A stretch of DNA of 61,019 bases. It comes from a virus. Made by a program: the position numbers and the translations under genes. Location of the stretch: positions 1-61,019 of the IMG/VR virus record IMGVR_UViG_3300031576_000044, one strand, 5' to 3'. Each line of letters starts with the position of its first letter. The stretch's first letter is position 1. The notes beneath the pieces are model-generated. The model did no database searches, was not told the DNA's origin, and was given only the letters and a program-made list of their open reading frames with translations. Shown piece after piece: positions 36,151 through 61,019 of the stretch.

Positions 36151-38132
36151 GGAAGCTCCTTGCGGTCGGCCTGTCGCTGGCTCTGGCGGCGCCCGCTGGA
36201 CCAGCGTGCGTCCTGAAGCAGAGCACGGCGAAGACCATCCGCGTCGGTCCCTTCGTGGACAAGACGGACGGCGTGACCGAGGAGGTCGGCCTCGCCACCA
36301 CGGGCACCGAGCTGTCGAAGGACGGCGGCGCCTATGCGGCCGGTCCGACGCTCGGGACGCACGACGCCGAGGGCTGGTACCCGCTGGCCCTGACCAGCGG
36401 CAACACGGACACGCTCGGGGAGCTGCTGATCAAGGTCCACGACGTCGCCACGCACCTGCCTCTGTGGCGGAGCTGCACCGTGCTGACGGCCAACGTCTTC
36501 GACTCGCTCTACGGCACCGGCGATGTGCTCGACGTGAGCACCATCCAGTTCAACGGGAGCGCCGTGATCCAGTCCGGCGGCCGGCCGGAGGTGAACACGA
36601 CGCACTGGGCTGGCGGCGCGACGGCCACCGACGACGTGGCTCTCGCGACGGCGCCGACCAACTTCGCCCTGTTCGAGGTCAACGCCTCCGGGCAGGTAGA
36701 CGTCTACCAGATCGAGAACGTGGACGCCACGAACCAGATCAACTCCGAGGTGGACGTCGCCCTCGACACGGCCATCCCGACCACGCCGACGACAGACTCC
36801 ATCAACGAGCGAGTCAAGACCCTCGACGACAACTACACGGCCGCGCGCGCGCCCAAGCTCGACAACGCCGACGTGGCGACGTCGACCAGGGCCACGCCGG
36901 CCCAGGTCGGCACCGAGCTCGACAACCGGCGGCTGGACGAGCTGGCCTCCGCCGACTCGGATCTAGACGGCGCGCAGCCCCCTGCGGTGGGCAGCTACTT
37001 CTTCGAGCTCATGTCGAAGTCGACCGGGAGCTTCACCTTCGACCAGACCACGGAGTCGACCGAAGCGCTGCGGGACCAGCTCTCCACCTACGCCGGCGGC
37101 GACACCGCGGGCACCACCACCCTGCTCTCGAGGATCCCCGGCGTCGTCCAGCCGCAGACGGGCGACTCCTACGCGCGCCTGGGGGTGCCCACGGGCGCGT
37201 CGACTGCGGCTGACATCGCGGCGGTGAAGACCGACACCGGCAACCTGGTGACCCGCATCCCCGATGGCGACCTCGACATCATGTCCAACCGCTGGCTCTC
37301 CATGATCCAGCTCGACGGCGCCGACTACGAGTACAAGCCGAGCGCCCTCGAGGAGGCACCGGGCGCGAGCGACCCGACGGTGCTGCAGAGCACGGTCATC
37401 GCGACCCTGGGGAGCCAGACCAGCCTCACCCTGACGGCCGGGTCGGGGGACGACAACGCCTACAACGAGGCGATCGCCATCTTCGTCGACGCCTCAACCC
37501 CGACCCAGAAGGCGGCCGTGGCGGTGCTCGACTACACGGGCTCGACCAAGACGGTCACCTTGGCCGAGGCGCCGGCGTTCACGATCGCGGCCGGGGACAC
37601 CATCCACCTAGTCGCGACCGGCCAGCCGTGGGACGTCGCCATGGCGGACCACCTGCTCGCGAACTCAACCGGGTCGAAGCTGAACTCGGCCGCGGCCGCA
37701 GGCGACCCTCTTTCCGCCAGCTGTCCAGGCGCGTACACCGGCAACCAGGTCGGCGCGCTCATCTGCTCCAAGCTGCCGCAGATCGGCTCGCTCGAGGTGA
37801 GCTGGACCGGTCCGTACACCGAGACCGGGGAGGTCGTCGTCACCAAGGGCGACGACACTACTCTCGACTGGGTGAACTCGACCGGGAACTGGGACACGCT
37901 GACCGGCGCCAGCATCACGCTCTACGTCTACCGCGGCCAAGTCCTGGTCCTGCAGAAGACCGGGAGCATCATCTTGCCGACGGGCGCACCAAAGCAGGTG
38001 CGGGTGACCCTGACCAACACCGAGACTGCGAGCTTCACCCCCGACAAGCACGACTACGTGGTAAAGGCCACGTGGACGGGTCCCGTCATCAAGACCCTCG
38101 CCCGAGGCGACTGGCAAGTGATCTGGCCATGA
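36147..38132 (+). CDS. Signal-peptide-bearing fibre-like protein, 661 aa
   Basis: MRKLLAVGLSLALAAPAGPA is a Sec signal peptide with a Cys shortly after (possible lipobox variant). The following domain (TIRVGPFVDKTDGVTEEVGL, KDGGAYAAGPTLGTHDAEGWY, ANVFDSLYGTGDVLDV) is a well-known phage fibre N-terminal fold. It later has repetitive Thr/Asp segments and a C-terminal 180-residue beta domain. It and the gene at 33609 look like paralogous fibre arms. Confidence 0.65.
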   Translation: MRKLLAVGLSLALAAPAGPACVLKQSTAKTIRVGPFVDKTDGVTEEVGLATTGTELSKDGGAYAAGPTLGTHDAEGWYPLALTSGNTDTLGELLIKVHDVATHLPLWRSCTVLTANVFDSLYGTGDVLDVSTIQFNGSAVIQSGGRPEVNTTHWAGGATATDDVALATAPTNFALFEVNASGQVDVYQIENVDATNQINSEVDVALDTAIPTTPTTDSINERVKTLDDNYTAARAPKLDNADVATSTRATPAQVGTELDNRRLDELASADSDLDGAQPPAVGSYFFELMSKSTGSFTFDQTTESTEALRDQLSTYAGGDTAGTTTLLSRIPGVVQPQTGDSYARLGVPTGASTAADIAAVKTDTGNLVTRIPDGDLDIMSNRWLSMIQLDGADYEYKPSALEEAPGASDPTVLQSTVIATLGSQTSLTLTAGSGDDNAYNEAIAIFVDASTPTQKAAVAVLDYTGSTKTVTLAEAPAFTIAAGDTIHLVATGQPWDVAMADHLLANSTGSKLNSAAAAGDPLSASCPGAYTGNQVGALICSKLPQIGSLEVSWTGPYTETGEVVVTKGDDTTLDWVNSTGNWDTLTGASITLYVYRGQVLVLQKTGSIILPTGAPKQVRVTLTNTETASFTPDKHDYVVKATWTGPVIKTLARGDWQVIWP

Positions 38133-38323
38133 CCGAGACGACCCGTCCCCTCGAGGTCGCCCGCGCGGACGCGGTGGTCGAGGCGCGCTCGCTCGAGCGC
38201 GAGAGCCGGGGTCATCACGTCTCCGAGGTCGACCGCCTGATGTGGCGGATCGAGGAGGTGTGGCTGGGCATGCGGGGCCGGCTCCGGGGGCTCGTCGACG
38301 ACGCGAAGGCGAGGCGCGGATGA
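38129..38323 (+). CDS. Small hypothetical protein, 64 aa
   Basis: ATG overlaps the previous stop (ATGA). Charged helical product (MTETTRPLEVARADAVVEAR), no membrane segment. It opens the lysis-associated operon; function unknown. Confidence 0.5.
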   Translation: MTETTRPLEVARADAVVEARSLERESRGHHVSEVDRLMWRIEEVWLGMRGRLRGLVDDAKARRG

Positions 38324-38673
38324 CGCCGGCCGAGGTCGCGCTCGGTGCGGCCGGCATCCTGCTCAACACCTTCTTGGCGCTCGTGGCCCTGGTCTACTCG
38401 CGCCGGGACAAGGGCAGCCAGGACCGCGAGGACCTGCGCAAGGCCATCGACGCGGTGGCAAAGGATCTCCATGACCACCAGCTCGCCTACGAGAAGCGGG
38501 TCGGCCGGTTCGTTGAGCGCTCCGAACTCGATCGTTGGGACGACTGTTTCGACGTGCTCACGGCCTCGATCGCCAGGCTCCGCGAGATCCTTGCGGCGCA
38601 ACGCGGACGTGCCGACGAGGTCGCGCACCCTCGGCGTGCACCCAAGGGGGGAGGGGACCTGGATGAACCCTGA
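38320..38673 (+). CDS. Single-TM coiled-coil protein (i-spanin or holin-like), 117 aa
   Basis: ATG overlaps the previous stop (ATGA). One N-terminal membrane segment (VALGAAGILLNTFLALVALVY) is followed by a charged helical domain (DREDLRKAIDAVAKDLHDHQLAYEKRVGRFVE). That topology resembles an inner-membrane spanin or a DUF2730-type phage protein. It precedes a multi-pass protein and an endolysin. Exact role uncertain. Confidence 0.55.
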   Translation: MTPAEVALGAAGILLNTFLALVALVYSRRDKGSQDREDLRKAIDAVAKDLHDHQLAYEKRVGRFVERSELDRWDDCFDVLTASIARLREILAAQRGRADEVAHPRRAPKGGGDLDEP

Positions 38674-38935
38674 GGTCCCCCGCCTGCTCATCGTCGCCAG
38701 CGGTGTCCTCGGCGCGGCCGCCATGGCGACGCTCGCCCTGCTCTGCCGCAACGGTACGGACCCGGCGCGCGCGGCGTTCCGCCGGCTCTTCTGGGTCTGC
38801 TCGCTGTCGTTCCTGCTCAGCGTCGCGCTCCGGCTGTTCGCGTCGACCTGGTACTGGGGCGGCGTGGTCAACCTGTGGCTGCCGGCGCTCGCGGCCGCAG
38901 CGACGGTCCATGCGCTGCGCGGAGGTCGGTCGTGA
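38663..38935 (+). CDS. Three-TM holin candidate, 90 aa
   Basis: ATG 38663 follows GAGGGGAC and overlaps the previous gene by 11 bases. Three hydrophobic segments: LLIVASGVLGAAAMATLALL, LFWVCSLSFLLSVALRLF and VNLWLPALAAAATVHAL, separated by charged loops. Size, topology and position directly before the endolysin fit a holin. No family match asserted. Confidence 0.6.
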   Translation: MNPEVPRLLIVASGVLGAAAMATLALLCRNGTDPARAAFRRLFWVCSLSFLLSVALRLFASTWYWGGVVNLWLPALAAAATVHALRGGRS

Positions 38936-39552
38936 CGGTCGACGAACTGCTTGCCCGCGCGCGCGCCCAGGTCGGGCACAAGGCCCGCAGCCTCCAGGAG
39001 CCGCAGGCTGGAGAGCGTGCGATCTACCAGCTCGGCGCCGGCGCTCTCGACCCCAGCGCCCCACACCCCTGGGGCGAGGGCGAGGACGGCGCCTGCGACT
39101 GCTCGGCGTTCTCCTGCTGGTGCTTGGGCGTCTCGAAGCTGCAGCGCGGCTTCCGCTGGCTCGTACAGCTCAACGGCGGGTGGCTCAACACCGACGGGAT
39201 CTGGACGGACGCGCAGCACGAGAGCGGGTTCTTCGAACGGCTCGAGCGGCCGCTCGTCGGCTGCGCGCTCGTCTACCCGAGCGCCAAGGTCGCGAAGCTC
39301 CCCGGCACCCCACCGATCGGACACGTCGGGATCGTGACCGCGCTCGACGCCCAGGGCCGCGCTGCAAAGGTCATCCACTGCAGCTCGGGCAACTATCGCA
39401 AGACCGGGGACGCCATTCAGGAGACCGACGCCACCGTGTTCAGCCGGGTTGGAGCCACGCTCGCCGCCTGGTGCGCCACCGTCGAGCGTCCCGAGCAGGC
39501 CCGACCCAAGAAGGAGGCTCCATGCAGACCTATCTCCGCGCCCTTGTCCTGA
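38932..39552 (+). CDS. NlpC/P60-like endolysin, 206 aa
   Basis: GTG overlaps the previous stop (GTGA). The catalytic Cys lies in DCSAF (about residue 55), the His in IGHVGIV (about 131), and a third polar residue near VIHCSSG (about 149), in the C-H-H order of NlpC/P60 cysteine peptidases. No signal peptide, so release would need the adjacent holin. It should cut peptidoglycan stem peptides. Its 3' end overlaps the next lipoprotein gene by 31 bases. Confidence 0.75.
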   Translation: MTVDELLARARAQVGHKARSLQEPQAGERAIYQLGAGALDPSAPHPWGEGEDGACDCSAFSCWCLGVSKLQRGFRWLVQLNGGWLNTDGIWTDAQHESGFFERLERPLVGCALVYPSAKVAKLPGTPPIGHVGIVTALDAQGRAAKVIHCSSGNYRKTGDAIQETDATVFSRVGATLAAWCATVERPEQARPKKEAPCRPISAPLS

Positions 39553-39833
39553 TCCTGGCCGCCGCGCTCGCCGGCTGCAGCGACGAGTCGCCGACCGGAC
39601 CCTTCCCAACCCCGACACCCGCCCCGGGCTGCCCGTTCACTCTCGAGGCCGTGCCCATAGCCGGCGCGGCCGGCTTCTACCACGTCCAGCCCAACCCGGC
39701 CGGGGACTACGTGCTCTTCGTCAACGGCTCGAGCACGTCGCTCGAGTTCGGCGTCATTTTCACCGCGGCGAGCGGAGACGTGATCTCCGGCTGCCGCCCC
39801 TGCGGCTGCACGACCCCCGTCACGCTGCGCTGA
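39522..39833 (+). CDS. Small lipoprotein (possible o-spanin), 103 aa
   Basis: ATG 39522 follows AAGGAGG inside the endolysin gene. The signal MQTYLRALVLILAAALAGC ends in a lipobox (LAGC), followed by a Pro-rich spacer (TGPFPTPTPAPGCPF). Outer-membrane spanins are short, Pro-rich lipoproteins that overlap lysis genes, which fits the position. The later beta-like segment and Cys pairs (RPCGCTT) are less typical. Tentative. Confidence 0.5.
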   Translation: MQTYLRALVLILAAALAGCSDESPTGPFPTPTPAPGCPFTLEAVPIAGAAGFYHVQPNPAGDYVLFVNGSSTSLEFGVIFTAASGDVISGCRPCGCTTPVTLR

Positions 39834-39845
39834 GAGAGGAGGACC

Positions 39846-40133
39846 ATGGTCCGCGCCAAGTTCAGGCTCAACAAGATCGAGACCTCGGAGCACACCAGGT
39901 CGCACCCGACCATCGACGGCAAGTACACGAGCGAGGTCCTCGAACTGCGCACCCTCATCTTCTCGCCCGTCTACAGCAGCGACCCCGAGAGCGAGAACCG
40001 CCACTTCTGGGATGCGACCCCGAGCGGCGAGATCCGGCTCGGCTGCGTGAACCGGGAGGCCTGGGAGAAGTTCCAGCTCGGTCACGAGTACTACCTCGAC
40101 TTCACGCCGGCGCCGGCGATGGCCACCCCATGA
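39846..40133 (+). CDS. Conserved-looking hypothetical protein, 95 aa
   Basis: GAGAGGAGG precedes ATG 39846. The product (MVRAKFRLNKIETSE, PVYSSDPESENRHFWDATPSG, YYLDFTPA) has a beta-barrel-like pattern common in small phage proteins of unknown role. No signal peptide. Confidence 0.55.
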   Translation: MVRAKFRLNKIETSEHTRSHPTIDGKYTSEVLELRTLIFSPVYSSDPESENRHFWDATPSGEIRLGCVNREAWEKFQLGHEYYLDFTPAPAMATP

Positions 40134-40147
40134 AAGGAGAATCCTCA

Positions 40148-40582
40148 ATGAAGTCCCGCCTGCTCCTCACGCTGCTCCTGCCCCTGCTCGTCATCCTCGC
40201 CGCCTGCGACTGCTCCAAGTGGTACGGCAAGTACCGCGCCGGCTACAGCTTCGTCTCGGGCGCGGTCTACGGCGTGCTCGATCCACTTGCCGGCGTCGAC
40301 CCAGGCATCGGAGCCCGCTACAACCCGCTCAAGACGGCGCTCGAGGCCGCGAACAGCCTCATCGACCGGCTCTGCGCGGCCGACCCCGGCGCGAAGGAGC
40401 AGCAGGACCTGGCGGCGGCGATCGCCAACGGGGCCCAGCTCGTGTCCGAGATCGCCAAGGTCTACGGCGACGTCGTGCGGCCGCGCGACCTCGAGGAGGC
40501 CAGGGCCTGGAAGGAGACGGTCGCCGAGATGGAGGGTCTGCAGGCGGAGATCCAGCAGGCGGCCGAGCGAGGCACCAGGTAG
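40148..40582 (+). CDS. Lipoprotein with helical body, 144 aa
   Basis: AAAGGAG is 7 bases upstream of ATG 40148. MKSRLLLTLLLPLLVILAAC is a lipoprotein signal ending in AAC. The mature part starts DCSKWYGKYRAG and is mostly helical (LEAANSLIDRLCAAD, ETVAEMEGLQAEIQQAAERG). Could act in lysis or in modifying the host envelope; unknown. Confidence 0.6.
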   Translation: MKSRLLLTLLLPLLVILAACDCSKWYGKYRAGYSFVSGAVYGVLDPLAGVDPGIGARYNPLKTALEAANSLIDRLCAADPGAKEQQDLAAAIANGAQLVSEIAKVYGDVVRPRDLEEARAWKETVAEMEGLQAEIQQAAERGTR

Positions 40583-40586
40583 CTCC

Positions 40587-41120
40587 ATGCTGTCGAAGCG
40601 CCCGCGCTCCTGGACCGCCGGCGAGCTCGCCGACCAGGTCGAGGTCCGCGTCGCCGGCGAACGCCGGAAGGTGCCCCGCCGTCTGCTCGACCTGATGGCC
40701 GGGCCACGGCCGCCAGTGGACTGCGAGTCCAACGGCTGCGGGCCGAAGCTCTCGGCGGTGCCGTGCCTGGGGCGCCTCGTCTCCTGGCTCGTGCCCGACG
40801 TGCTTCACGGCTGGCCGATCTGGATCGGATGCCACTGGCACGACTACCACTACGGGCCACACCGCCCGCTCGGAGGAACCTGGGCCTCGCGGCGGCAGGC
40901 CGACTTCCTGCTCGCCCGCAACATCCTGACCGTGATCGCTGAGGCCGGCGTCTGCAGCTGGCCGCGCGCCGCTACGGTGGCCGGGCTCTACTGGCTGGGC
41001 GTCCGCCTCGGCGGGTGGTGCGCGTTCAGCTACGGACCCGGAGAGGCCCCGCGCTCCGCCCTCGAGCGCGTCCGGGAGCGGACCGGGCTTTTCCGTCGCG
41101 CAGTGGGGAGCGTGACCTGA
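40587..41120 (+). CDS. DUF1353-like hypothetical protein, 177 aa
   Basis: ATG 40587 follows the lipoprotein by 4 bases. GWPIWIGCHWHDYHYG and SRRQADFLLARNIL resemble the His/Asp-rich core of DUF1353 phage proteins (HDYLY...R-ADR). The C-terminus is hydrophobic. It overlaps the caspase-like gene by 1 base (TGATG). Role not established. Confidence 0.5.
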   Translation: MLSKRPRSWTAGELADQVEVRVAGERRKVPRRLLDLMAGPRPPVDCESNGCGPKLSAVPCLGRLVSWLVPDVLHGWPIWIGCHWHDYHYGPHRPLGGTWASRRQADFLLARNILTVIAEAGVCSWPRAATVAGLYWLGVRLGGWCAFSYGPGEAPRSALERVRERTGLFRRAVGSVT

Positions 41121-42025
41121 TGGGCTGGTTCCGCAACTTCCTGGCGTGGCTGCGGGACGATGACGTCCCCGCGCCGGCACTCGCCTCGTCGCCGTCGCCG
41201 GTGACCGCTGAAGGTCGCCGCCTCACCATCGGCGTCGGCGTCAACGAGTACCTCGGCTCGCCTGAGAACGCGCTCCGCGGCTGCGTCAACGACTCGGTCA
41301 ACGTCCGCCACGAGCTCGAGCAGCGGGGATGGGAGGCACCGGCCGAGCTGCTCTTCGACCACGAGGCGACGAAGCGCCGCACCCTCGAGGTCATTGGCAA
41401 TACCTGCGCGAGCCTGCGCACCGGCGACACGCTGCTCGTCCAGTGGTCGAGCCACGGGACACGTATCCATGATCCGGCGGAGGCCGACGGGCTCCTCGAG
41501 GCGATTTGCCCGACCGACGCCATGGCCGACTGGCCACGGAACCTGGTGACGGTCCTGGACCTCGCCCGGATCTTGCGCGAGCAGGTGGCTCCCGGGGCGC
41601 TGGTGCTCCTCCTGGTCGACGCCTGCCACAGCGGGGTGCGGGGCGCGGATGCGGGCAACTACGCCCGGGCGCTGAACCCGCTCTACCGGCGGGCGCGCGT
41701 CCTCCTGGGGCCCGTGGCGGCCGGCGGGACACGGGTCCGGGGACTCAGCGGCGCTGTCACCGGGCAGGTGGCGACCCCCTGGTCGAGGACGGTGCTCCTG
41801 TCCGGCTGCCGCTCCGACCAGGTCTCGCTCGACACGTGCATCGCCGGCGAGTACCAGGGCGCGATGACCTGGGCGTTCCTGCGCGCGCTGCGCTGGACCC
41901 GGTCCGAGCGGACGCTCCGGGAGCTCCACGTCCACATGCGGCAGATCCTGACGGCGCAGGGGTACGCCCAGGAGCCGCAGCTCCTCGGGTCGCCGCCGCA
42001 GCTCGAGCGCCGGGTGTTCGGATGA
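41120..42025 (+). CDS. Caspase-like (peptidase C14/metacaspase-type) protease, 301 aa
   Basis: Overlaps the previous gene (TGATG). The p20-like fold is clear: RLTIGVGVNEY (35-44), ALRGCVNDSVNVRHEL (51-66), the His-Gly dyad in QWSSHGT (His112), and the catalytic DACHSG (Cys169). These are the motifs of metacaspases, which typically cleave after Arg or Lys. It lacks a signal peptide and extra domains; the last 120 residues complete the fold (LLSGCRSDQVSLD, AFLRAL). A phage lysis-module metacaspase is rarely described. Possible roles include host killing, anti-defence cleavage or virion processing; none is shown. Confidence 0.85.
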   Translation: MGWFRNFLAWLRDDDVPAPALASSPSPVTAEGRRLTIGVGVNEYLGSPENALRGCVNDSVNVRHELEQRGWEAPAELLFDHEATKRRTLEVIGNTCASLRTGDTLLVQWSSHGTRIHDPAEADGLLEAICPTDAMADWPRNLVTVLDLARILREQVAPGALVLLLVDACHSGVRGADAGNYARALNPLYRRARVLLGPVAAGGTRVRGLSGAVTGQVATPWSRTVLLSGCRSDQVSLDTCIAGEYQGAMTWAFLRALRWTRSERTLRELHVHMRQILTAQGYAQEPQLLGSPPQLERRVFG

Positions 42026-42294
42026 CGCCGGCGACGGTCGCCGCCGCGGACTCCTACCGGGAGCATCTCCGTACGCTGGGCGACGTCGAGCTGGCCAAGG
42101 AGATGCGGCGGTGCCTGGCCGAGGTCGCAGTGGTGCTGCGGGACACCGAGCCAACGGAAGGCCTGGTGCGGAGGTTGCGCGCTTGGCTCGAGGGACGGCG
42201 CCACCTCAATGTCGTGGTGACGCCCACCGGTAGGCCCGCAGTCAGGGCTTTCGTAGAGCGGTGCACAACGCCGCCACGAGCGAATCCGCCCTAG
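42022..42294 (+). CDS. Small hypothetical protein coupled to the caspase gene, 90 aa
   Basis: ATG overlaps the caspase stop (ATGA). Helical N-terminus (ATVAAADSYREHLRTLGDVE), then a short beta-like end. Tight coupling makes it a possible partner or inhibitor of the caspase-like protease; that is inference. It converges with the minus-strand cargo, overlapping its last gene by 4 bases. Confidence 0.5.
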   Translation: MTPATVAAADSYREHLRTLGDVELAKEMRRCLAEVAVVLRDTEPTEGLVRRLRAWLEGRRHLNVVVTPTGRPAVRAFVERCTTPPRANPP

Positions 42295-42768
42295 TCGAGT
42301 CCGCCTGGCGCGCGCTTCTCTCTCGAAAGAACGTAGCGCAGCGCCCAGCCGATGGTCTGGAGCCCACTCCGCACACGTCGCAGCGACCGCAGGAAGTCGC
42401 TGCGTCGCAAGTCCTCGACGCACAGAGGATCGGCGACCCGCACCCGTTGGAGCGGCAGGGCGACACCACCGAAGTCGACGCCGAGGGCCGTCAGCCGATT
42501 GCAGATCTCGTAGAAGAGCCACTCGCGTGCATGCTCGGGAAGGTTGACGACCATCTCCTGGTGCTGTGGCTCGAGCGTCAGGCCTCCACCTATCAGAAGC
42601 TCGTCGGGGTCGTGGGCGCCCTGGCCGACCTCGATGGTTGGTCCATCTGGTGGCTTCGCCATCACCGACCAGGCAGCCGAGGGATTCGACGACGTCAGTG
42701 ATGACGAACTGCTCGGCGCGCAGCCAGGCAAGTACCCTCTCGCGGGTGGCACTGAACCGTTCGTCCAT
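42291..42768 (-). pseudogene. DUF2299-like protein split by a frameshift
   Basis: Reading the minus strand from ATG 42768 gives MDERFSATRERVLAWLRAEQ...GCLVGDGEA, after which that frame turns to Arg/Pro-rich nonsense. The other frame (from ATG 42662) continues KPPDGPTIEVGQGAHDPDELL, HQEMVVNLP, RRVRSGLQTIGW. Together they look like one domain resembling the DUF2299 family. A single-base indel near 42645-42662 would restore it. Either a decayed gene or a sequence error; a start at 42662 could still make the 123-aa C-terminal part. Confidence 0.5.
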
Positions 42769-42819
42769 GGTGGAGTTGGTGACGGCGGACGAGAGCTGAA
42801 AGGAGGTCACGTTGGGGCA

Positions 42820-42825
42820 ATTATA
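42820..42825 (-). promoter_or_regulatory. TATAAT -10 element upstream of the split DUF2299-like gene
   Basis: A perfect TATAAT on the minus strand (42825-42820) inside a GGGG...CCCC flanked tract, about 52 bases before ATG 42768. The -35 region is weak. If active, the last cargo gene has its own promoter. Confidence 0.4.
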
Positions 42826-42859
42826 CCCCTCGACCCGTCCTCTCCAGTTCGCGTCCACC

Positions 42860-43114
42860 CTACGCGGCGTTCTTCGGCTTGGTGCACACCGGCGGGTCGC
42901 AGACCGAGCACGGCGTGTAGCTCTTGGCCGCCTCGCAGAGCTTCATCGCGATCTTCGACTTGGCCAGGTGCCGGCAGCCGTCGGCGTGGTACTTGGAGCC
43001 GGTCTTGGTGACGTAGACGGTGGGCTCGGTTCCCGCGAGGAGTAGCGCCGGTAAAACAAGCAGGAAGACGACTAGAGCAACAGAGCGATTCCGACTTTTT
43101 ACTCCATGCGGCAT
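42860..43114 (-). CDS. Secreted His/Cys metal-binding domain protein, 84 aa
   Basis: ATG 43114 is preceded by GGAGGG on the minus strand. A signal peptide (VALVVFLLVLPALLLAG) leads to VYVTKTGSKYHADGC, LCEAAKSYTPCSVC. The YH-x3-C ... PC-x2-C pattern is like the Ada/thermonuclease-associated metal-binding module. Small, exported, probably zinc-binding. The neighbour at 43128 carries the same pattern. Confidence 0.65.
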   Translation of the reverse strand: MPHGVKSRNRSVALVVFLLVLPALLLAGTEPTVYVTKTGSKYHADGCRHLAKSKIAMKLCEAAKSYTPCSVCDPPVCTKPKNAA

Positions 43115-43127
43115 GGTTCCCTCCAGG

Positions 43128-43607
43128 CTAATGTTGGGGCGGCTTGCAGTTCGTGCAAGGACGACGAGCACGCCTCGCCTCATCGAGACTCGTCGACCGT
43201 GCTCCAGGCTTGACGTATTTGCAGTCGTCGAAGTGGTAGGCCTCCCCTTGCAGGTTGACGTAGTAGCGCACCCCTGCCGGGAAGGGCCAGGATTTGGTGA
43301 TGCCCTCCATGGTGATCGCGCCGGCCTGGTCATCGGAGATTCCATACTTCGCGCGCACGGCCGCGAGCCGCTTGTCGGCCAGCCTTTCCTTCAAGTTCGC
43401 CTGCGCTGCGAGGACCTTTCCCATCTCCGCTTTGTTCATCGGGCCACGGCTGAGGTCAGGCGTCGGGATCCGTCCCTCGGCCTCGGCGCCGGCCCTGGCG
43501 CTCGCGGCGTACAGCGCCTGGTAGATCTCGATGCGCTTCGCCTCCGTCACCTCGGCCGCGGTAACCTGGCTGGAAAGGTAGAGCAAGAGAGCCGCAGCCC
43601 TCAACAT
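43128..43607 (-). CDS. Secreted protein with a second His/Cys metal-binding module, 159 aa
   Basis: MLRAAALLLYLSSQVTA is a signal peptide. A helical middle (IYQALYAASARAGAEAEG, GKVLAAQANLKERLADKRL) is followed by YYVNLQGEAYHFDDC and PCTNCKPPQH, the same YH-x3-C / PC-x2-C arrangement as the neighbour, but fused to a larger N-terminal domain. The two genes may be a divergent duplication. The start slightly overlaps the upstream lipoprotein gene's end. Confidence 0.6.
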   Translation of the reverse strand: MLRAAALLLYLSSQVTAAEVTEAKRIEIYQALYAASARAGAEAEGRIPTPDLSRGPMNKAEMGKVLAAQANLKERLADKRLAAVRAKYGISDDQAGAITMEGITKSWPFPAGVRYYVNLQGEAYHFDDCKYVKPGARSTSLDEARRARRPCTNCKPPQH

Positions 43608-44302
43608 AGCGGTCCAGGACAGCGGACGCAGCGCAGACCTCCGTGGCTCGAGCAGGTGCCAGATTGATTCTGCGAGCAGGTGCCCATCCCGTCGTTGCAG
43701 ATGCCGGTCACGTCGCGGCAGCCTTGGAGGCCGCTCGACGGCAGGATGCCGCAGACAGGAAGTCCGGATGGCCCCGGTGTTACGGATGGCGTAGGCGTAG
43801 GTTGCGGCGTTCCTCCCCCAGGGGGCGGAGTTGGGGTAGGCAGTCCGGCGCCAGCCACGATCGCGACCGTGGTCGAGGCTGAAAGCCCACGGCCCCGCGA
43901 GTCGGTTGCGGTGACAGCAATGTCGAGTCGGCCATCAGCTCTCCCGTTGTTGAAGGTGTAGACCAGGCCATCCTGAAGTTGGAAGACGCCACCTGGCGGT
44001 ATGGCGTTGGCGCCCAACGCCAGAAGGTCCGCGGAGGTCAGCGTGATCGAGCCGACGTTGGCCCCGTCGGAGTTGAAGAGGGTCTTCGTGACCGACTGAA
44101 TCGTCGCGCCATCCCCCGTGCTGAGCGTGGCGGTCAGAGTCCAGAGGGCCGCGAAGCTGAAGCCCGCCGTCGGCGAGGCGGTTGCCGAGATTGGGCTCGG
44201 GGTGACGGCGAGGATGAGACTTCCGAGGGGGGAGGTTGGCGACCCACCACCGCCGCAGCCTAGGAGGGAGAGGGCCGCAAGCCCCGCGAAGATGCGTCGC
44301 AT
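43601..44302 (-). CDS. Lipoprotein with Ig-like content, 233 aa
   Basis: AAAGGAG precedes ATG 44302. MRRIFAGLAALSLLGC ends in a lipobox, followed by a Gly/Pro-rich linker. The mature part is beta-rich (FSFAALWTLTATLSTGD, GRLDIAVTATDSRGRG) with a Pro/Thr-rich segment (TPTPPPGGGTPQPTPTPS) and a C-terminal Cys-rich end (CGILPSS, GCRDVTGICNDGMGTC). An exported outer-envelope protein, perhaps a lysogenic conversion factor. Confidence 0.6.
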   Translation of the reverse strand: MRRIFAGLAALSLLGCGGGGSPTSPLGSLILAVTPSPISATASPTAGFSFAALWTLTATLSTGDGATIQSVTKTLFNSDGANVGSITLTSADLLALGANAIPPGGVFQLQDGLVYTFNNGRADGRLDIAVTATDSRGRGLSASTTVAIVAGAGLPTPTPPPGGGTPQPTPTPSVTPGPSGLPVCGILPSSGLQGCRDVTGICNDGMGTCSQNQSGTCSSHGGLRCVRCPGPLC

Positions 44303-44383
44303 GTATCTCCTTTCAAGTGCGGGGAATGCCCGACCCGCCGCTCTACGGCGGCTGGATCGTTGCGGTTTATCCTTCGGTGAAGT

Positions 44384-44746
44384 TCACTGCGGCACCACGT
44401 CGTAGTAGCAAGCTGGCGACGTGGCCTCGACCGCCCAGACCTCGAGCCGGTATGTGGTCTCGGCGCCAGGCAGATCGTTGTACACGTAGTCCTTGGTGAT
44501 CGAGCAGGTGCCGTCGCGGTAGACCTTGGCCACGCTCTGCCAGGCGGATCCGTTCCAGCGCCTGAGCTGGTAGGATTCCACCGCGGCGGTCTCGTCGTCG
44601 GTTGACCAGGTCGCGCGAATCCCGTCCGCCTCGATGGTGCCGACGAAGCTCGCGGAGACGCCGGCGCAAGTGTCCGTGACGCCGCAGGGGTTCGCAAGCG
44701 CAGGGACGAGCAGGACCGCAAGGATTGCCGAAAGGGTTTGCCTCAT
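44384..44746 (-). CDS. Secreted fibronectin type III-like protein, 120 aa
   Basis: ATG 44746 overlaps the regulator's stop (TGATG). MRQTLSAILAVLLVPALA is a signal peptide. The rest (IEADGIRATWSTDDETAAVE, YQLRRWNG, LPGAETTYRLEVWAVE) fits a single fibronectin type III domain with Cys at both ends (PCGVTDTC, PACYY). Co-transcribed with the regulator gene. Confidence 0.65.
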   Translation of the reverse strand: MRQTLSAILAVLLVPALANPCGVTDTCAGVSASFVGTIEADGIRATWSTDDETAAVESYQLRRWNGSAWQSVAKVYRDGTCSITKDYVYNDLPGAETTYRLEVWAVEATSPACYYDVVPQ

Positions 44747-45642
44747 CAGGTCTCCTTCTTCGCCCAGGCCGGGTCTGGCCGCCACATCAGCATGAACGCG
44801 TACCCGGCGAGCGGCTTCCTGATCGTAACCCGAGCCTGGCTTCCAGGTGGAGCATCGAGGTGCCAGCTCTCGCAGGAGCCTCGATCGGCCAGATCCTCCT
44901 CGACGATCTCCGCAGCACCAGGAAATGCGGCACGGAACGTCCACTCCGGGGAATGGTAGCCCACCGGGAAGCTCATCGAGATCGTGAAATCCGTCAAGTG
45001 CTGACGCGGGATATAGCTGAACCGCTGGAACGCGGGTTCCGAGGCTGGATCTTGTCGCACCAGGAGGCCGGGAACCGCGCCGCTCACGAGACACCCGACT
45101 CCCGCGGCCGGCCAGGTCCCTCCCTTCGGCTCGATCTCGTGCCAGCGCCATCCGCCGGGACCGTCCGCTGTATGATGCTCGAAGAGGATCGCTGGGTTGT
45201 CGGAGACGACGGCATAGGAGGCGATGGTTGGAATCACCGCGCACTGCGCTGCAAGGATGCGCTCTCGGAATTCGATCTTGGCCTTGTCCCGCAACGGTCT
45301 GGCAGCGGCCCAGTGCCGAGTCAGCAGGGCGGCGCCGCTTGGTTCAACGGTCAGGAAGACGCTTAGGGAGGCGGCCTCCACGGTCAGCTGCTCGCGCTGC
45401 AGGAGCCAAGCCGACTCGAAGTGGTCGTGCCAGTCGACGCTCGCGGAGTGGGCCGGGGGCCCTTCCGCGATCCGGGCCAGTTCGGCCACCACCTCGACGT
45501 CGAGCTCGTGCGGCGGCTTGCGGAGCAGGCGCGAGACGTAGGAGGCGGACTTGCCGAGGCGCCGGGCGACCTCGCGGACCCCGAGAGCGCGGGCCAGCAC
45601 TACGACGTCGGCTGGCTCGATATGGGGAGCGGCGGTGTCCAC
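44746..45642 (-). CDS. HTH regulator with large C-terminal domain (candidate repressor), 298 aa
   Basis: GTG 45642 is 7 bases after the -10 TAGAGT, so it is likely leaderless. Residues 10-55 hold an HTH (VLARALGVREVARRLGKSASYVSRLLRKPP). The C-terminal 220 residues have no recognised family but contain repeated aromatic and acidic blocks (WHDHFESAWLLQREQL, GYHSPEWTFRAAFPGA), perhaps a sensor or dimer domain. It faces the integrase/excisionase side across a region of operator-like repeats, so it is the best candidate for the immunity repressor, but no peptidase motif for RecA-induced cleavage is seen. Confidence 0.65.
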   Translation of the reverse strand: MDTAAPHIEPADVVVLARALGVREVARRLGKSASYVSRLLRKPPHELDVEVVAELARIAEGPPAHSASVDWHDHFESAWLLQREQLTVEAASLSVFLTVEPSGAALLTRHWAAARPLRDKAKIEFRERILAAQCAVIPTIASYAVVSDNPAILFEHHTADGPGGWRWHEIEPKGGTWPAAGVGCLVSGAVPGLLVRQDPASEPAFQRFSYIPRQHLTDFTISMSFPVGYHSPEWTFRAAFPGAAEIVEEDLADRGSCESWHLDAPPGSQARVTIRKPLAGYAFMLMWRPDPAWAKKET

Positions 45643-45649
45643 GGGCCCT

Positions 45650-45678
45650 ACTCTAATCCAGGCGGCGAGAACGGTCAA
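45650..45678 (-). promoter_or_regulatory. Promoter of the HTH regulator (TTGACC-17-TAGAGT)
   Basis: On the minus strand TTGACC (45678-45673), a 17-bp spacer and TAGAGT (45655-45650), then 7 bases to the GTG. This is a good sigma-70 match and implies a leaderless message. Confidence 0.6.
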
Positions 45679-45746
45679 GGTCAGCGGCAGGCAACAGGTA
45701 CGGCACAGGCAGGCAACGACCGCTAGGTAGCGGCTGGAACGCCTCG

Positions 45747-45797
45747 GTGTTGCCGGTGTTACCGAGCGCTGGCATTTCCGGCAACGCCGGCAACACC
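45747..45797. repeat. Inverted operator-like repeat built from GTGTTGCCG units
   Basis: GTGTTGCCG and GTGTTACCG in tandem at 45747-45764 face CGGCAACGC and CGGCAACAC at 45779-45796, giving 18-bp arms that match at 16 positions with a 14-bp spacer. They lie between the two divergent promoters. Further copies stand at 47602-47610, 47735-47743, 47749-47757, 47791-47799 and 47824-47832. This pattern suggests the binding site of one phage regulator. Confidence 0.6.
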
Positions 45798-45835
45798 TGA
45801 CGGGGCAGACCGCGGCACAAAGCAACGCGTGAACG

Positions 45836-45864
45836 TTGACGGCGGTTTGACACCGTGGTACCTT
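45836..45864 (+). promoter_or_regulatory. Promoter of the RHH gene (TTGACG-17-TACCTT)
   Basis: TTGACG at 45836-45841, a 17-bp spacer and TACCTT at 45859-45864 with an upstream TGG (extended -10). The ATG follows after 7 bases, so the message would be leaderless. Confidence 0.5.
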
Positions 45865-45871
45865 TGTGGCC

Positions 45872-46066
45872 ATGGTCGACCAGGCCAAACGCGCGAAGCG
45901 GAGCAAGAAGGCGCTGCGCGACCGGTGGCTAAAGTTCCGGGCGACCGACGACGAGATCGAGCTCGTCAGACGCGGGGCGGCGGCGGAAGACCGGCGCCTC
46001 AGCGACTTCATGCGGGTTGCTGCGAAGGAACGGGCTCGCCAAGCCATCGAAGCCACGCGGAACTAG
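45872..46066 (+). CDS. Ribbon-helix-helix DNA-binding protein, 64 aa
   Basis: Starts MVDQAKRAKRSKKALRDRW. FRATDDEIELVRRGAAAE and SDFMRVAAKERAR form a ribbon-helix-helix of the MobC/DUF1778 kind. ATG 45872 is chosen because the -10 element ends 7 bases upstream. It could be the Cro-like or toxin-antitoxin-type partner opposing the minus-strand regulator. Confidence 0.65.
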   Translation: MVDQAKRAKRSKKALRDRWLKFRATDDEIELVRRGAAAEDRRLSDFMRVAAKERARQAIEATRN

Positions 46067-46119
46067 GCCCCGCCAGCCCGGCCCACAAGCACGTCGAGCG
46101 ATCACCAGATCCTCGCGAC

Positions 46120-46394: not shown

Positions 46395-47504
46395 GTGGTG
46401 TTCTACAAGCGGGGCAGGACCTGGTACGCGGACCTCGGTCGGCGCAACGGCCGACGCCTGGTCGTCTCGCTGCGAACCACCGAGCGGGAGAAGGCGGAGA
46501 GCCTCTACCTCGAGCTGGCGCGCCAGCGGCGGATCCGCGGCCTCGCCCTCGACGAAGCAATCCTCACCGAGAGGCAGCAGCCCCGGGACCCCGTCACCGT
46601 GGCCGCGGCGATCGCCGACTTCCTGTCCTACTCGCAGAAGCACCACTCTCCGACCACGATCGAGCGCAACCAGCGGATCAGCCGGTCGCACCTGGTCCCG
46701 CAGATGGGAACGCTGGTGCTCGGAGGCATCAGCCTCGAGGCGATCGAGCACTACAAGGCGAAGCGGCTCCACGATGGAGCGAAGCCGGAGACGGTCAACC
46801 GGGAGCTGCAGGTCCTGCGCAAGGCCCTCAACCACCAGGTGGCGCTCGGCAAGATGCCGTCGAACCCGCTCCAGCGGTTCAAGCTCCTGCCGGTCGTCCG
46901 CTCCGAGGTCCCGGTGCACCTGTTGCCGGAGCAATACCGAGCTCTCGTCGAGCTCGCCGAGGAGCCGTTGCGCACCATGATCGTCGTGGCCGTCCAGACC
47001 GGGTTGCGCAAGACGGAGCTGTTCCAGCTGACCTGGACACGGGTCGATCTCCAGCGCCGCTTCATCTTGGTCGACGCCAACGACGGGGAATGGCGGCCGA
47101 AGGGGCGGAAGGCTCGACCGTTACCGCTCAACGAGGAGGCCTACGCCGCGCTCAAGGAGCACCAGGCGCGGACCCGGCTTCGGTCTCGGTACGTCTTCTG
47201 CGGCCGCACAGGCCGCCCGCTTACCACGCTCAAGACCTCCTGGACCACGCTCCGGCGAAAGACCGGCGTGAAGGTGCGCTGGCATGACCTGCGCCACACG
47301 TTCTGCTCGTGGGCGATCCAGGACGGGGTCCCGGTCCAGGCCGTCGCGGAGCTGCTCGGCCATGCCGATCTCCAGATGGTCAAGCGCTACACCCACTTGC
47401 GGCCGGAGCACCTGCGGGCAGCGGTCGACACCGTTGCGCGGGCCAGCAAGCGGGTACATAATGGCGACAGTCGTGAGGCGTCGCCGAAGCCGCCAACCTC
47501 CTGA
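46395..47504 (+). CDS. int: Tyrosine recombinase integrase, 369 aa
   Basis: N-terminal arm-binding segment (VFYKRGRTWYADLGRR), then a SAM-like core-binding domain (VAAAIADFLSYSQKHHSP), then the catalytic domain with TGLRKTE (Arg near 205), HDLRHTF (His and Arg near 298 and 301), and LGHADLQMVKRYTHL (His near 324, Tyr near 333). All catalytic residues are present, so it should be active. It lies next to a 3' tRNA fragment that serves as attP. It makes the phage temperate. Confidence 0.9.
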   Translation: MVFYKRGRTWYADLGRRNGRRLVVSLRTTEREKAESLYLELARQRRIRGLALDEAILTERQQPRDPVTVAAAIADFLSYSQKHHSPTTIERNQRISRSHLVPQMGTLVLGGISLEAIEHYKAKRLHDGAKPETVNRELQVLRKALNHQVALGKMPSNPLQRFKLLPVVRSEVPVHLLPEQYRALVELAEEPLRTMIVVAVQTGLRKTELFQLTWTRVDLQRRFILVDANDGEWRPKGRKARPLPLNEEAYAALKEHQARTRLRSRYVFCGRTGRPLTTLKTSWTTLRRKTGVKVRWHDLRHTFCSWAIQDGVPVQAVAELLGHADLQMVKRYTHLRPEHLRAAVDTVARASKRVHNGDSREASPKPPTS

Positions 47505-58076: not shown

Positions 58077-60842
58077 ATGGCGAAGAGGAAGAGCAGTGAG
58101 ACGGCGGAGCAGCATGGCGGCGGGACGGCGGCGGCGATCGCGGAGGCGCCCCCGCCTGGCGCACAGCAGCTCATCCCTCTCGAAGCCATCCGCATCGGCG
58201 GCGCGAACCCGCGCCGGCACTTCGACGAGGCGAAGATGGCCGAGCTGACCGAGAGCGTCCGCCGGCACGGCGTCCTGCAGCCGGTGCTCGTCCGGCACTG
58301 GCCCGACCCGGGGAGCGACCGCTACGAGCTCGTCGCCGGCGAGCGCCGCTACCGAGCCGCGAGCAAGGCCGGCCTCTCCGAGATCCCGACGCTCATCCGG
58401 GAGCTCTCCGACGCCCAGGCTCTCGAGCTTCAGGTGATCGAGAACCTCCAGCGCGAAGACCTGCACCCGCTCGAGGAGGCTGAGGGCTACCGTCAGCTCC
58501 ACGAGGTCCACGGCTACGCCGTCGAGGACCTGGCCGCCAAGGTCGGCAAGTCCCGGATGTACATCTACGGCCGGCTCAAGCTCTGCGCCCTCTCGAAGCC
58601 GGCCAAGGAAGCCTTCCTCGAAGGGCAGTTCAGCGCCTCGATCGCGCTCCTGCTCACTCGACTACAGGAGCCGCAGCAGGCCGACGCGCTCAAGGAGCTG
58701 AAGCGCTGGGGCGAGGACGGTCCGTCGTATCGCGACTTCGCTGACCATGTGCAGAGCAAGTACATGCTCCGTCTCGACGGCGTGCCCTGGAAGCTCGATG
58801 ATGCCGACCTAGTCCCGAAGGCCGGGCCGTGCACGACCTGTCCCAAGCGCACCGGCAACCAGCCGGAGCTCTTCTCGGACGTCCGGAGTAAAGACGTCTG
58901 TACGGACCCGGGCTGCTATCGAGACAAGCAGGCCGCGACCTGGATGCAGGTGCAGGCCGAGGCGGAGTCCGAAGGCCTCGAGGTCCTCGGCGAGAAGGAG
59001 GTGAAGAAGGCCTTCCCGTACGGCGACCGTCCGGGCCACAACAGCGGCTTCGTCGCCATCACCGAACGGTGCGACGAGTCCCCGAAGGGCGAGAGCTGGC
59101 AGAAGACACTTGGCAAGGCAGCGCCGCCCGCGGTCGTGGCGTGGACGCCTGGCGGCGCCGTGGTCAAGCTCTACCGCGAGAAGGAGGCGCTCGACGCGGC
59201 TCGCGGCAAGGGCTACAAGTGGGCGCAGGCGCACCGTTCGGATGCCGGCTCGGGATCGAGCGACGCGGCCGACCGCCGGCGCATGGCGGAGCAGCGGTTG
59301 AAGGGTGCGGCGCGTCGTGAGGCGATCGGCCGGCTAGTCGCCGCTGCGGAGAAGAGGGAGCCGCCTGCCTCGATCTGGCGCGAGATCGCCGGCGCCATCA
59401 TGGGCGCGGTCTGGGCGCAAGTCTCGCGCGAGATCGCCCAGCGTCGCGGCATCGAGGCAAAGGGCGGAGGCTTCGGCGCCCAAGAAGCGATCAAGAAGCT
59501 CCTGGCGAAGATGACACCTGGGCAGGCCCGAGGCCTCGCCCTCGAGGTCCTGGTTGTGCGCGGCCTGCTGGACTTCGGGAATCGGCACGATGGCGCGCGG
59601 CAGCTCCTCCGCGCGTTCCACATCGACCTCAAGGCAATCGAGAACCAGCTCAAGGTCCAGCAGAGGGCGAAGGCCAAGGAGCCCCGCAAGACTCCCTCTC
59701 AACGCCAGCGCGAGGCCGGGGAAGCCGCAAAGGAGGCAGCCGACCAGGCCGATCTCGCCAAGCTGCCCGACAAGATCCCGGCGCTGGTCGAGGACTACCG
59801 CCGTACGCTGCAGGCCCGGCACAACTTCATGCTCAAGGGCAAGGTCAAGCAGGCGCAGGAGGCGACCCGGCGCCTCGACCTGCTCCAGGCGAAGGCCAAC
59901 GGCGGCAGGAGCTTTGGCTCCGGCGTCGAGACATCGCCAGCGGAGACGCTGCGCAGGCAGACCGCGGCCCCCATCGGGCAGGAGCCGCTCTGGGGCCAGC
60001 TGGGCGTCTTCCGTGTCGAGGTCGACGGCGTCCCCTACTTGGTCGAGCACGACACGTCGATGCACTTGGCCCTCCACGCCGAGCAGGCCTCCATGCGCTG
60101 CATCTCCGAGACCGGGTTTCATAGCTTCTTCCCAGCCACGCCCGGGTCCGACGAGGAGGTGCGCGCTTCCGTCGCCGACTACGTGGTGGAGCTCATCCGT
60201 GAAGAGGTCGCCACGGTCCCGAACCGCTCGGGCGCGCAGCGCGTGCCGCGCCCGGCGAGCAAGCCCCTGCCCTACCCGGAGCGGGTCTACCGCCTGCCGA
60301 AGAAGGGCGAGGGGAGGAAGCTCATCGAGCTTGCGGTGAAGGGCGGCCGGTCCGACGAGGTGCCGACGGCGCCGGCCAAGCACCCGGCCCGTTGCGCGCT
60401 GCGCCCCGCCGTCGGCGCGACCAAGGGCAACCACGCGCCTTGCACGCTCGAGCCCGGCCACAAGGCCAAGCACAAGAACCAGACCGAGAGCTGGACGAGG
60501 TGCGAGAAGCCGGCCGGCCTCCCGGGTGTTCCGCCGAGGGCGGTTCGTTGCCGCGCCTGCAAGGCGAAGCCCGGCTTCCCATGCACCGGCCACACCGGCG
60601 GCCGCAACTCGAAGTTCCACAAGGTCCGCGAGCAGGACGCGACGCGGGTCAGACAGGCCACGCCCGGGATCTGCTGCCGCTGCGGGTGCGTCGAGGCAGC
60701 CGCCTGCCCCGGCGGCTGCGCCTGGGTCAATGCCGACCGGACGGTCTGCAGTTCCTGCGCGACGCCCGAGGAGCTGCGGGCGGCACAGACGATGGGCGGT
60801 GGCGTCCGGCGCGTCGGCGCACTGTCGGACGAGGAGAAGTAG
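58077..60842 (+). CDS. Very large ParB/RepB-like fusion protein, 921 aa
   Basis: CAGGAGG lies upstream of ATG 58077. Residues 35-130 form the ParB/Spo0J domain (NPRRHFDEAKMAELTESVRR, ELVAGERRYRAASKAG, QVIENLQREDLHPLEEA), then a ParB HTH (AVEDLAAKVGKSRMYIYGRL). A Cys cluster follows (CTTCPKRTGN, CTDPGCYRDKQ), as in phage/plasmid ParB-like proteins. About 400-620 is helical and Lys/Arg-rich. The last 170 residues carry more zinc-like clusters (CRACKAKPGFPC, CCRCGCVEAACPGGC). No ParA is present. It may bind CTP and DNA; partition is doubtful. Its 3' end is repeated at 1-62. Confidence 0.75.
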   Translation: MAKRKSSETAEQHGGGTAAAIAEAPPPGAQQLIPLEAIRIGGANPRRHFDEAKMAELTESVRRHGVLQPVLVRHWPDPGSDRYELVAGERRYRAASKAGLSEIPTLIRELSDAQALELQVIENLQREDLHPLEEAEGYRQLHEVHGYAVEDLAAKVGKSRMYIYGRLKLCALSKPAKEAFLEGQFSASIALLLTRLQEPQQADALKELKRWGEDGPSYRDFADHVQSKYMLRLDGVPWKLDDADLVPKAGPCTTCPKRTGNQPELFSDVRSKDVCTDPGCYRDKQAATWMQVQAEAESEGLEVLGEKEVKKAFPYGDRPGHNSGFVAITERCDESPKGESWQKTLGKAAPPAVVAWTPGGAVVKLYREKEALDAARGKGYKWAQAHRSDAGSGSSDAADRRRMAEQRLKGAARREAIGRLVAAAEKREPPASIWREIAGAIMGAVWAQVSREIAQRRGIEAKGGGFGAQEAIKKLLAKMTPGQARGLALEVLVVRGLLDFGNRHDGARQLLRAFHIDLKAIENQLKVQQRAKAKEPRKTPSQRQREAGEAAKEAADQADLAKLPDKIPALVEDYRRTLQARHNFMLKGKVKQAQEATRRLDLLQAKANGGRSFGSGVETSPAETLRRQTAAPIGQEPLWGQLGVFRVEVDGVPYLVEHDTSMHLALHAEQASMRCISETGFHSFFPATPGSDEEVRASVADYVVELIREEVATVPNRSGAQRVPRPASKPLPYPERVYRLPKKGEGRKLIELAVKGGRSDEVPTAPAKHPARCALRPAVGATKGNHAPCTLEPGHKAKHKNQTESWTRCEKPAGLPGVPPRAVRCRACKAKPGFPCTGHTGGRNSKFHKVREQDATRVRQATPGICCRCGCVEAAACPGGCAWVNADRTVCSSCATPEELRAAQTMGGGVRRVGALSDEEK

Positions 60843-61019
60843 CGTCATGGCCAAACGCTCGTTCAGCGGCGCCCCGACTGCGCCCCGCCACCCGCGCGCG
60901 GCCGTGGGTAAGACAGAGATCGCCTGGACCGATTGGACCTGGTCGCCGATCGTCGGCTGCCGGCGGGTCAGCCCTGGGTGCGAGCACTGCTACGCGGAGA
61001 GGCTCGCGGCCACGCGCCT
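60781..61019. repeat. Terminal repeat of 1-120 joined to 1150-1268 (variant allele)
   Basis: 60781-60900 equals 1-120 without a mismatch, and 60901-61019 equals 1150-1268. The intervening 1,029 bp (121-1149) is missing. Such an overlap is what an assembler leaves when a circular or terminally redundant genome is linearised, but here the two ends differ by one clean deletion. The genome is probably 60,780 bp with the segment or about 59,751 bp without it. Confidence 0.85.
60847..61019 (+). CDS. In-frame fusion of the MAKRSF ORF start to DUF5131 (partial, variant allele)
   Basis: From ATG 60847 the frame reads 18 codons of the small MAKRSF gene, then Ala, then Val-Gly-Lys-Thr-Glu-Ile, the start of the DUF5131 protein, and continues to the window edge. 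The 1,029-bp difference is exactly 343 codons, so the indel keeps frame. In this allele the DUF5131 protein would carry a 19-residue extension, or begin internally at its GTG. The Cys motif (GCRRVSPGCEHC) is intact. Confidence 0.7.
   Translation, partial: MAKRSFSGAPTAPRHPRAAVGKTEIAWTDWTWSPIVGCRRVSPGCEHCYAERLAATR

Follow-up and report, generated by a model that had tools for sequence, protein, structure and literature searches.

Genomic context of the caspase gene

The plus-strand gene at 41120–42025 of the window (the whole stretch of DNA analysed, 61,019 bases, which is the size of IMG/VR virus record IMGVR_UViG_3300031576_000044) starts with ATG and encodes a phage metacaspase of 301 residues with both p20 and p10 domains, recognised by Pfam, phmmer and AlphaFold with Foldseek. 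Only one gene follows it in a long plus-strand run, which extends to 42294 and there meets genes of the opposite orientation, and the plus-strand genes before it form a lysis cassette. First comes a 117-aa protein (38320–38673) with a single N-terminal TM segment and then a charged stretch, holin- or spanin-like by hydropathy and with no significant family match, followed by a protein of 90 aa (38663–38935) for which three TM segments are predicted, a holin candidate called from its hydropathy and TM pattern only. A candidate endolysin (38932–39552) has a CHAP domain above the Pfam cut-off (PF05257, E=2.3e-6) and precedes a small lipoprotein and spanin candidate (39522–39833; lipobox LAGC), a 95-aa protein (39846–40133) matching phrog_6978 (E=9.7e-10), to which PHROG assigns no function, and a 144-aa lipoprotein (40148–40582; lipobox LAAC), both lipoproteins being recognised from sequence and hydropathy.

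The caspase gene is translationally coupled on both sides. The TGA of the 177-aa gene upstream (40587–41120, plus strand), at 41118–41120, shares base 41120 with the caspase ATG, and an ATGA overlap at 42022–42025 joins the caspase to the final gene of the operon, which encodes 90 aa (42022–42294, plus strand) and has a low coding score. A sequence-only reading of this DNA had described a phage-encoded caspase in the lysis region, coupled to its neighbours and lying beside an endolysin and lipoproteins, and all of this is borne out. Its label of DUF1353-like for the 177-aa protein is not, as that protein has no Pfam match and a weak PHROG match only (phrog_6098, E=8.6e-4). The same reading had the caspase standing alone. 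This is correct for defence partners, PADLOC matching only the caspase itself (E=1.7e-14) and finding no gasdermin, NLR, CRISPR or CARD partner among the seven neighbours scanned, but not for the gene as such, which has relatives at about 55 IMG/VR loci. A consensus scan of the plus strand from 38000 to 46100 gave no promoter-like site, which is weak evidence.

The record also encodes a packaging ATPase (phrog_2666), portal, major capsid protein and tape measure, together with RecT, helicase, RusA and ParB-like proteins and a tyrosine integrase (46395–47504, plus strand; PF00589, E=4e-34). Surrounded by structural, packaging and integrase genes of this kind, the caspase gene belongs to a temperate phage and is not part of adjoining host sequence. 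The integrase matches are spread too broadly to point to a host, neither the portal nor the 177-aa protein has matches among phages, and single-sequence scans of IMG/VR found no relatives of the capsid protein or of a 531-aa protein from the tail region. The packaging-type ATPase (2153–3853) has matches to HerA/DUF87 as well as to a phage terminase family, and no standard large terminase was recognised in the window. Between the head-morphogenesis and small-terminase genes lies a DNA methyltransferase with a ParB-like N-terminus (7529–8704; phrog_498, E=1e-102).

The final 239 bases of the record repeat its start but skip positions 121–1149, in that 60781–60900 is an exact copy of 1–120 and 60901–61019 an exact copy of 1150–1268. 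This is most simply explained by a genome closed into a circle of ∼60,780 bp, in which positions 121–1149 can be bypassed by an alternative path. Such a presence/absence variant, of ∼1 kb, would surround the small genes at 67–669.

Fold and active site

The metacaspase-type p20 fold proposed from the motifs alone is confirmed by several comparisons, and a p10 domain is found in addition. Pfam Peptidase_C14 (PF00656) matches residues 39–289 with E=3.3e-19 and 69.9 bits against a cut-off of 21.4. Among solved metacaspases, phmmer matches AtMCA4 (6e-16), CgMCA1 and Yca1, aligning both p20 and p10 for the first two, and a family profile picks up Yca1, CgMCA1, AtMCA4, AtMCA9, TbMCA2 and GSU0716 with values from 1e-37 to 1e-60. 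The AlphaFold model has the caspase fold (pLDDT 80.2, pTM 0.79), with a core above pLDDT 90 and low order at the N-terminus (residues 1–22) and between the domains (174–185 and 199–217). Its top fold matches in the PDB are AtMCA9, GSU0716, AtMCA4 and CgMCA1 (E from 4e-17 to 3e-12).

The motifs named earlier are present exactly, with NEY at residues 42–44, RGCVNDS at 53–59, SHG carrying the catalytic His112 and DACHSG carrying the catalytic Cys169. The two catalytic residues, and also Asp58, Ser110 and Asp167, are kept in all 44 aligned phage caspases, and Cys55 in 43 of the 44. Cys55 and Asp58 are encoded at 41282–41293, Ser110 and His112 at 41447–41455, and Asp167 and Cys169 at 41618–41626, all on the plus strand. 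The S1 pocket of TbMCA2 is reported to be formed by Cys92, Asp95, Ser156 and Asp211 (PMC4357240), Cys92 and Asp95 corresponding with Cys55 and Asp58. Because Cys55, Asp58, Ser110 and Asp167 share the spacings of this pocket, the phage enzyme is predicted to cleave after Arg or Lys.

The p10 domain, the second phmmer domain to AtMCA4 and CgMCA1, is encoded at 41789–41998 on the plus strand (VLLSGCRSDQ...GAMTWAFLRAL...EPQLLGS). A disordered linker joins it to p20 (residues 174–217; 41639–41770, plus strand); pLDDT is below 50 at 174–185 and 199–217, and the sequence is Arg-rich, making it a candidate region for self-cleavage. With p10 aligned at about 205–293, the linker is about 50 aa by eye, so that it falls within the rule that type I metacaspases have a p20–p10 linker of no more than 66 aa (PMC6426788). 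The type I label is limited to this p20–p10 layout, because the zinc-finger, Pro-rich prodomain of type I is not present; the N-terminus has 33 residues and no Cys.

One position sets the phage enzymes apart. Seven residues after the catalytic Cys, the window caspase has Ala176, and 35 of the 41 phage caspases read have Arg or Lys, whereas the residue is Asp in Yca1, AtMCA4 and TbMCA2, where we take it (Asp220) to belong to the Ca2+ site. For TbMCA2, four Asp are described in that site, three of which are shown (PMC4357240). Given that Asp is absent here, Ca2+ activation may differ from that in the Asp-bearing metacaspases.

The N-terminal region

The protein begins with a predicted amphipathic helix, MGWFRNFLAWL (residues 1–11; 41120–41152, plus strand), which has a hydrophobic moment of 0.64 and a hydrophobicity of 1.04 and is followed by an acidic, Pro- and Ala-containing linker (residues 12–33). 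The AlphaFold model also has a helix over residues 3–11, at low pLDDT. A similar composition recurs in the 18 phage caspases that have at least 25 residues before the core, when these are compared with the 1,026 other genes of their loci. Trp occurs within the first 20 residues in 67% of the extended caspases against 19% of the other genes, at least three Trp or Phe in 44% against 9%, and Cys at positions 2–8 in 50% against 8%. TM segments are found in two relatives, N-terminal in L036 and C-terminal in L009. From the Trp, Phe and Cys enrichment, the helix of the window protein and these TM segments, the simplest reading is that the caspase may dock on a membrane. A Cys near the N-terminus together with Lys or Phe (MCFKK, MCKIL, MCKLC, MGCKC) recurs in L005, L014, L016, L029, L030, L042, L051 and L055, phage caspases that have otherwise diverged.

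Relatives in other phages

Two profile scans of IMG/VR gave 55 caspase loci (L005–L059, some of them near-duplicates), on contigs of up to 485 kb, so that the search for the gene in other phages proposed by the sequence-only reading was productive, with the His-Cys dyad intact in each of the 44 relatives aligned. Other searches gave less: a single-sequence scan of IMG/VR with the window caspase gave no relatives, GenBank phages gave a match in one 485-kb uncultured phage only (30% identity), and no match was found among 38,880 PHROGs. A phage large terminase (phrog_2 type) is present in 22 of the 44 caspase-bearing records tested. An origin of the contigs from giant viruses was considered and discarded on the basis of these terminases and of the lack of any NCLDV capsid in the 44 records, a control that gave no match anywhere.

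In unsaturated pairs of relatives, which do not include the lineage of the window, dN/dS is 0.11–0.39, from which we conclude that the phage caspases are kept functional by purifying selection. Most phage caspases form clades apart from bacterial metacaspases, and the window sequence lies on a long branch (1.84) amid mostly viral sequences, with no firm placement. Recent acquisition from a bacterium was rejected on account of this long branch, the lack of close kin and a base composition (GC 0.72, GC3 0.92) close to that of the neighbouring genes. In the viral fold library BFVD, the 23 fold matches at E<=0.001 are all named for giant viruses or an ascovirus, and no phage protein reaches that value.

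Several of the loci have unusual features of their own. In two phages (L029:1837–2748 and L030:9728–10579) the caspases, about 45% identical, are rearranged, such that a strand-helix module with the catalytic His (SSHG), normally located before the Cys, is found at the C-terminus after p10; the AlphaFold model of the L029 protein (pLDDT 70.5) still matches metacaspases. Type III metacaspases are rearranged differently, the whole of p10 preceding p20, whereas in L029 and L030 only the His module has moved. Two other caspases (L024:4801–6795 and L049:6752–8830) contain an intein with an HNH-like region, inserted in both at one position that immediately follows the catalytic SGHG (C...HN|S). In L015 a complete Fe/Mn superoxide dismutase (10797–11393) is encoded immediately 3′ of the caspase. 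Finally, in a Bacteroidetes MAG contig (L064, JAGVVH010000315.1) the caspase lies amid phage-like genes and groups in the tree with that of phage L014; the contig is probably a prophage or a misbinned phage.

Neighbours of phage caspase genes

Neighbouring genes were compared at 49 non-duplicate caspase loci, counting those within three genes of the caspase and ignoring kinship among the loci. On this basis, small proteins with at least two TM segments occur at 11 of the 49 loci against 3.5 expected, a number that none of 20,000 simulations attained, and lipoproteins at 8 against 2.5 expected (P=1.5e-4). A stricter combined TM/lipoprotein score is likewise raised (22.6% versus 13.1%, p=2.6e-4). 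A looser criterion of any TM neighbour shows no enrichment (42 loci versus 40.9 expected) and was dropped as a sign of lysis context.

The holin-like cases cover about seven lineages, by our own grouping, and for most of these neighbours holin profile matches are sub-threshold at best. In L014 a coiled-coil protein with a TM segment precedes the caspase (−1); after it come, at +1, a protein with two TM segments and, at +3, an amidase that matches phrog_822, annotated as lysis, with E=1.6e-27. The window itself does not score as holin-like within three genes, its holin candidate being six genes upstream.

Proposed role

We tentatively favour the view that the caspase acts late, tethered to the membrane, as a protease that contributes to killing or lysing the host, although we rate this at somewhat below an even chance. 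The fold, the intact active site, the phage genome, the late-operon coupling, the recurrent holin-like and lipoprotein neighbours and the composition of the N-terminal helix are computed features; from them we infer activity, a basic P1 specificity, membrane docking, late timing, a part in lysis and the nature of the substrate. An active, type I-like metacaspase would be made late, alongside the lysis proteins, and its short amphipathic helix would attach it to the cytoplasmic membrane from the inside, where it would cleave proteins of the host or the phage after a basic residue (Arg or Lys). It could mature a lysis component, such as the holin-like protein, the CHAP endolysin, the lipoproteins or the coupled 177- or 90-aa protein, or alternatively cut host envelope or housekeeping proteins; in either case cleavage would make the death of the host and the escape of virions faster or more certain. 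Precedents for the opening of bacteria by proteases are bacterial caspase-gasdermin operons, some with amidases (PMC9612521), and the LypABC proteases, which are needed for gene-transfer-agent lysis and have peptidase domains with a part in lysing the host and releasing the agents (PMC13236601). Several observations count against a lysis role: the phage already has a canonical lysis cassette and does not obviously need a protease as well, in L037, L011, L012 and L013 the caspase lies among tail-fibre, DNA-metabolism or unassigned genes, the window has no gene counted as holin-like within three genes, neighbours with any TM segment are not enriched, and the N-terminal helix is modelled at low pLDDT.

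Of the three functions that had been offered from the sequence, host killing is consistent with where the gene lies in the late lysis cassette, with the membrane-type N-terminus and with the statistics on neighbouring genes, and the disarming of a host defence is possible, whereas capsid processing is disfavoured. Counter-defence, in which the caspase would cleave an immune protein of the host, or else block or forestall its caspase-gasdermin pathway, is the main rival, though we consider it unlikely. Counter-defence genes are usually early, whereas this one is located inside the late operon, no other defence genes were found among the neighbours tested, and the strictly conserved dyad gives no sign of inactive decoys. 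Its patchy distribution and variable position across phages would nevertheless suit an accessory arms-race gene, and relatives of the caspase do serve bacterial anti-phage systems, as reflected in the PADLOC match (PMC9612521).

A virion- or tail-associated protease, acting at entry or on a non-capsid virion protein, would be in keeping with L027, L037 and L053, in which the caspase adjoins tail-fibre or large structural genes. We regard it as improbable, since no structural neighbour is consistent across phages and the window caspase lies well beyond the tail genes, after the endolysin. Also quite improbable is expression in the lysogen, with the prophage caspase killing the cell or blocking other phages by abortive action or superinfection exclusion. 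The phage is temperate, the gene is at the operon end near a minus-strand block, and bacterial caspases serve in abortive defence, but the gene is coupled to late genes and has neither a sensor domain nor a partner, many of the relatives are in large phages not known as temperate, and the consensus scan, weak evidence as it is, shows no promoter-like site ahead of it.

The idea that the caspase replaces a missing HK97-type capsid maturation protease is very unlikely: no S77 or S78 domain is matched in the window, as the sequence-only reading had noted, but what it drew from this absence fails, because the 306-aa major capsid protein (15577–16497, plus strand) aligns over its full length with phrog_212 (residues 4–305 to 7–296 of 301, E=7e-22) and has no extra, removable N-terminal domain, a charged, scaffold-like protein without a family match fills the usual slot between the portal and capsid genes (14654–15523, plus strand), the caspase gene is distant from the head module, and eight other caspase-bearing records have a prohead protease of their own (S77 in six, S78 in two), showing that the caspase is not a general stand-in for that enzyme. 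The window phage does not seem to need a maturation protease.

Comparison with known systems

The phage caspase resembles the type I metacaspases (Yca1, 4F6O; C. glabrata MCA1, 7QP0; T. brucei MCA2, 4AF8) in its p20 and p10 domains, dyad, fold, sequence and acidic Cys/Asp/Ser/Asp S1 pocket, but differs in being phage-encoded and in having a short N-terminal helix in place of the zinc-finger prodomain. It is like the free-standing bacterial metacaspases (GSU0716, 3BIJ; Bradyrhizobium and Bacteroidota copies, L062–L074) in its single domain and similar length, and nearly all of these have a basic residue at Cys+7, as do most of the phage relatives; identity is however only 27–31%, the clades are mostly separate, and the window sequence remains on its long, unplaced branch. 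The top BFVD matches (Clandestinovirus, Medusavirus, Fadolivirus and Spodoptera frugiperda ascovirus) are also virus-encoded caspase folds, but from viruses of eukaryotes. Caspase-gasdermin operons and LypABC share the principle of protease-triggered cell opening, sometimes with amidases nearby; in contrast to the phage gene, near which no such partners were recognised, these belong to hosts and work together with pore-forming, CARD or NLR partners.

Among the open-licence papers searched, beyond which earlier work may exist, the one precedent is a sentence from 2012 according to which eight metacaspase operons of Clostridium botulinum seemed to be related to phages (PMC3501461); we found no study of phage-encoded metacaspases. 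There, as here, a metacaspase is near phage genes, but in the passage concerned it is mentioned only briefly, with no link to lysis, no phage family and no proposed function. Within the databases and literature searched, a phage metacaspase family with a recurrent lysis-type setting appears to be new.

Complete caspase-type proteases of this sort are known chiefly from cells and giant viruses, and it may be that certain phages employ one in killing or opening their hosts. A broader proposal, doubtful at present, is that phages widely use membrane-tethered metacaspases to lyse or kill hosts, as a class of proteins not yet described, which would include the His-module-rearranged enzymes and the intein-hosting active sites and would be a counterpart, and possibly the source, of the caspase-plus-pore pairing in bacterial gasdermin systems. 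Work on caspase-type proteases concerns their part in the death of host cells and in the immunity of bacteria. Should phages encode active copies next to holins and endolysins, lysis by phages might include a proteolytic step; a simple system would then be at hand for testing how membrane killing driven by caspases arose, and a large, unlabelled family of phage proteins would gain a defined chemistry.
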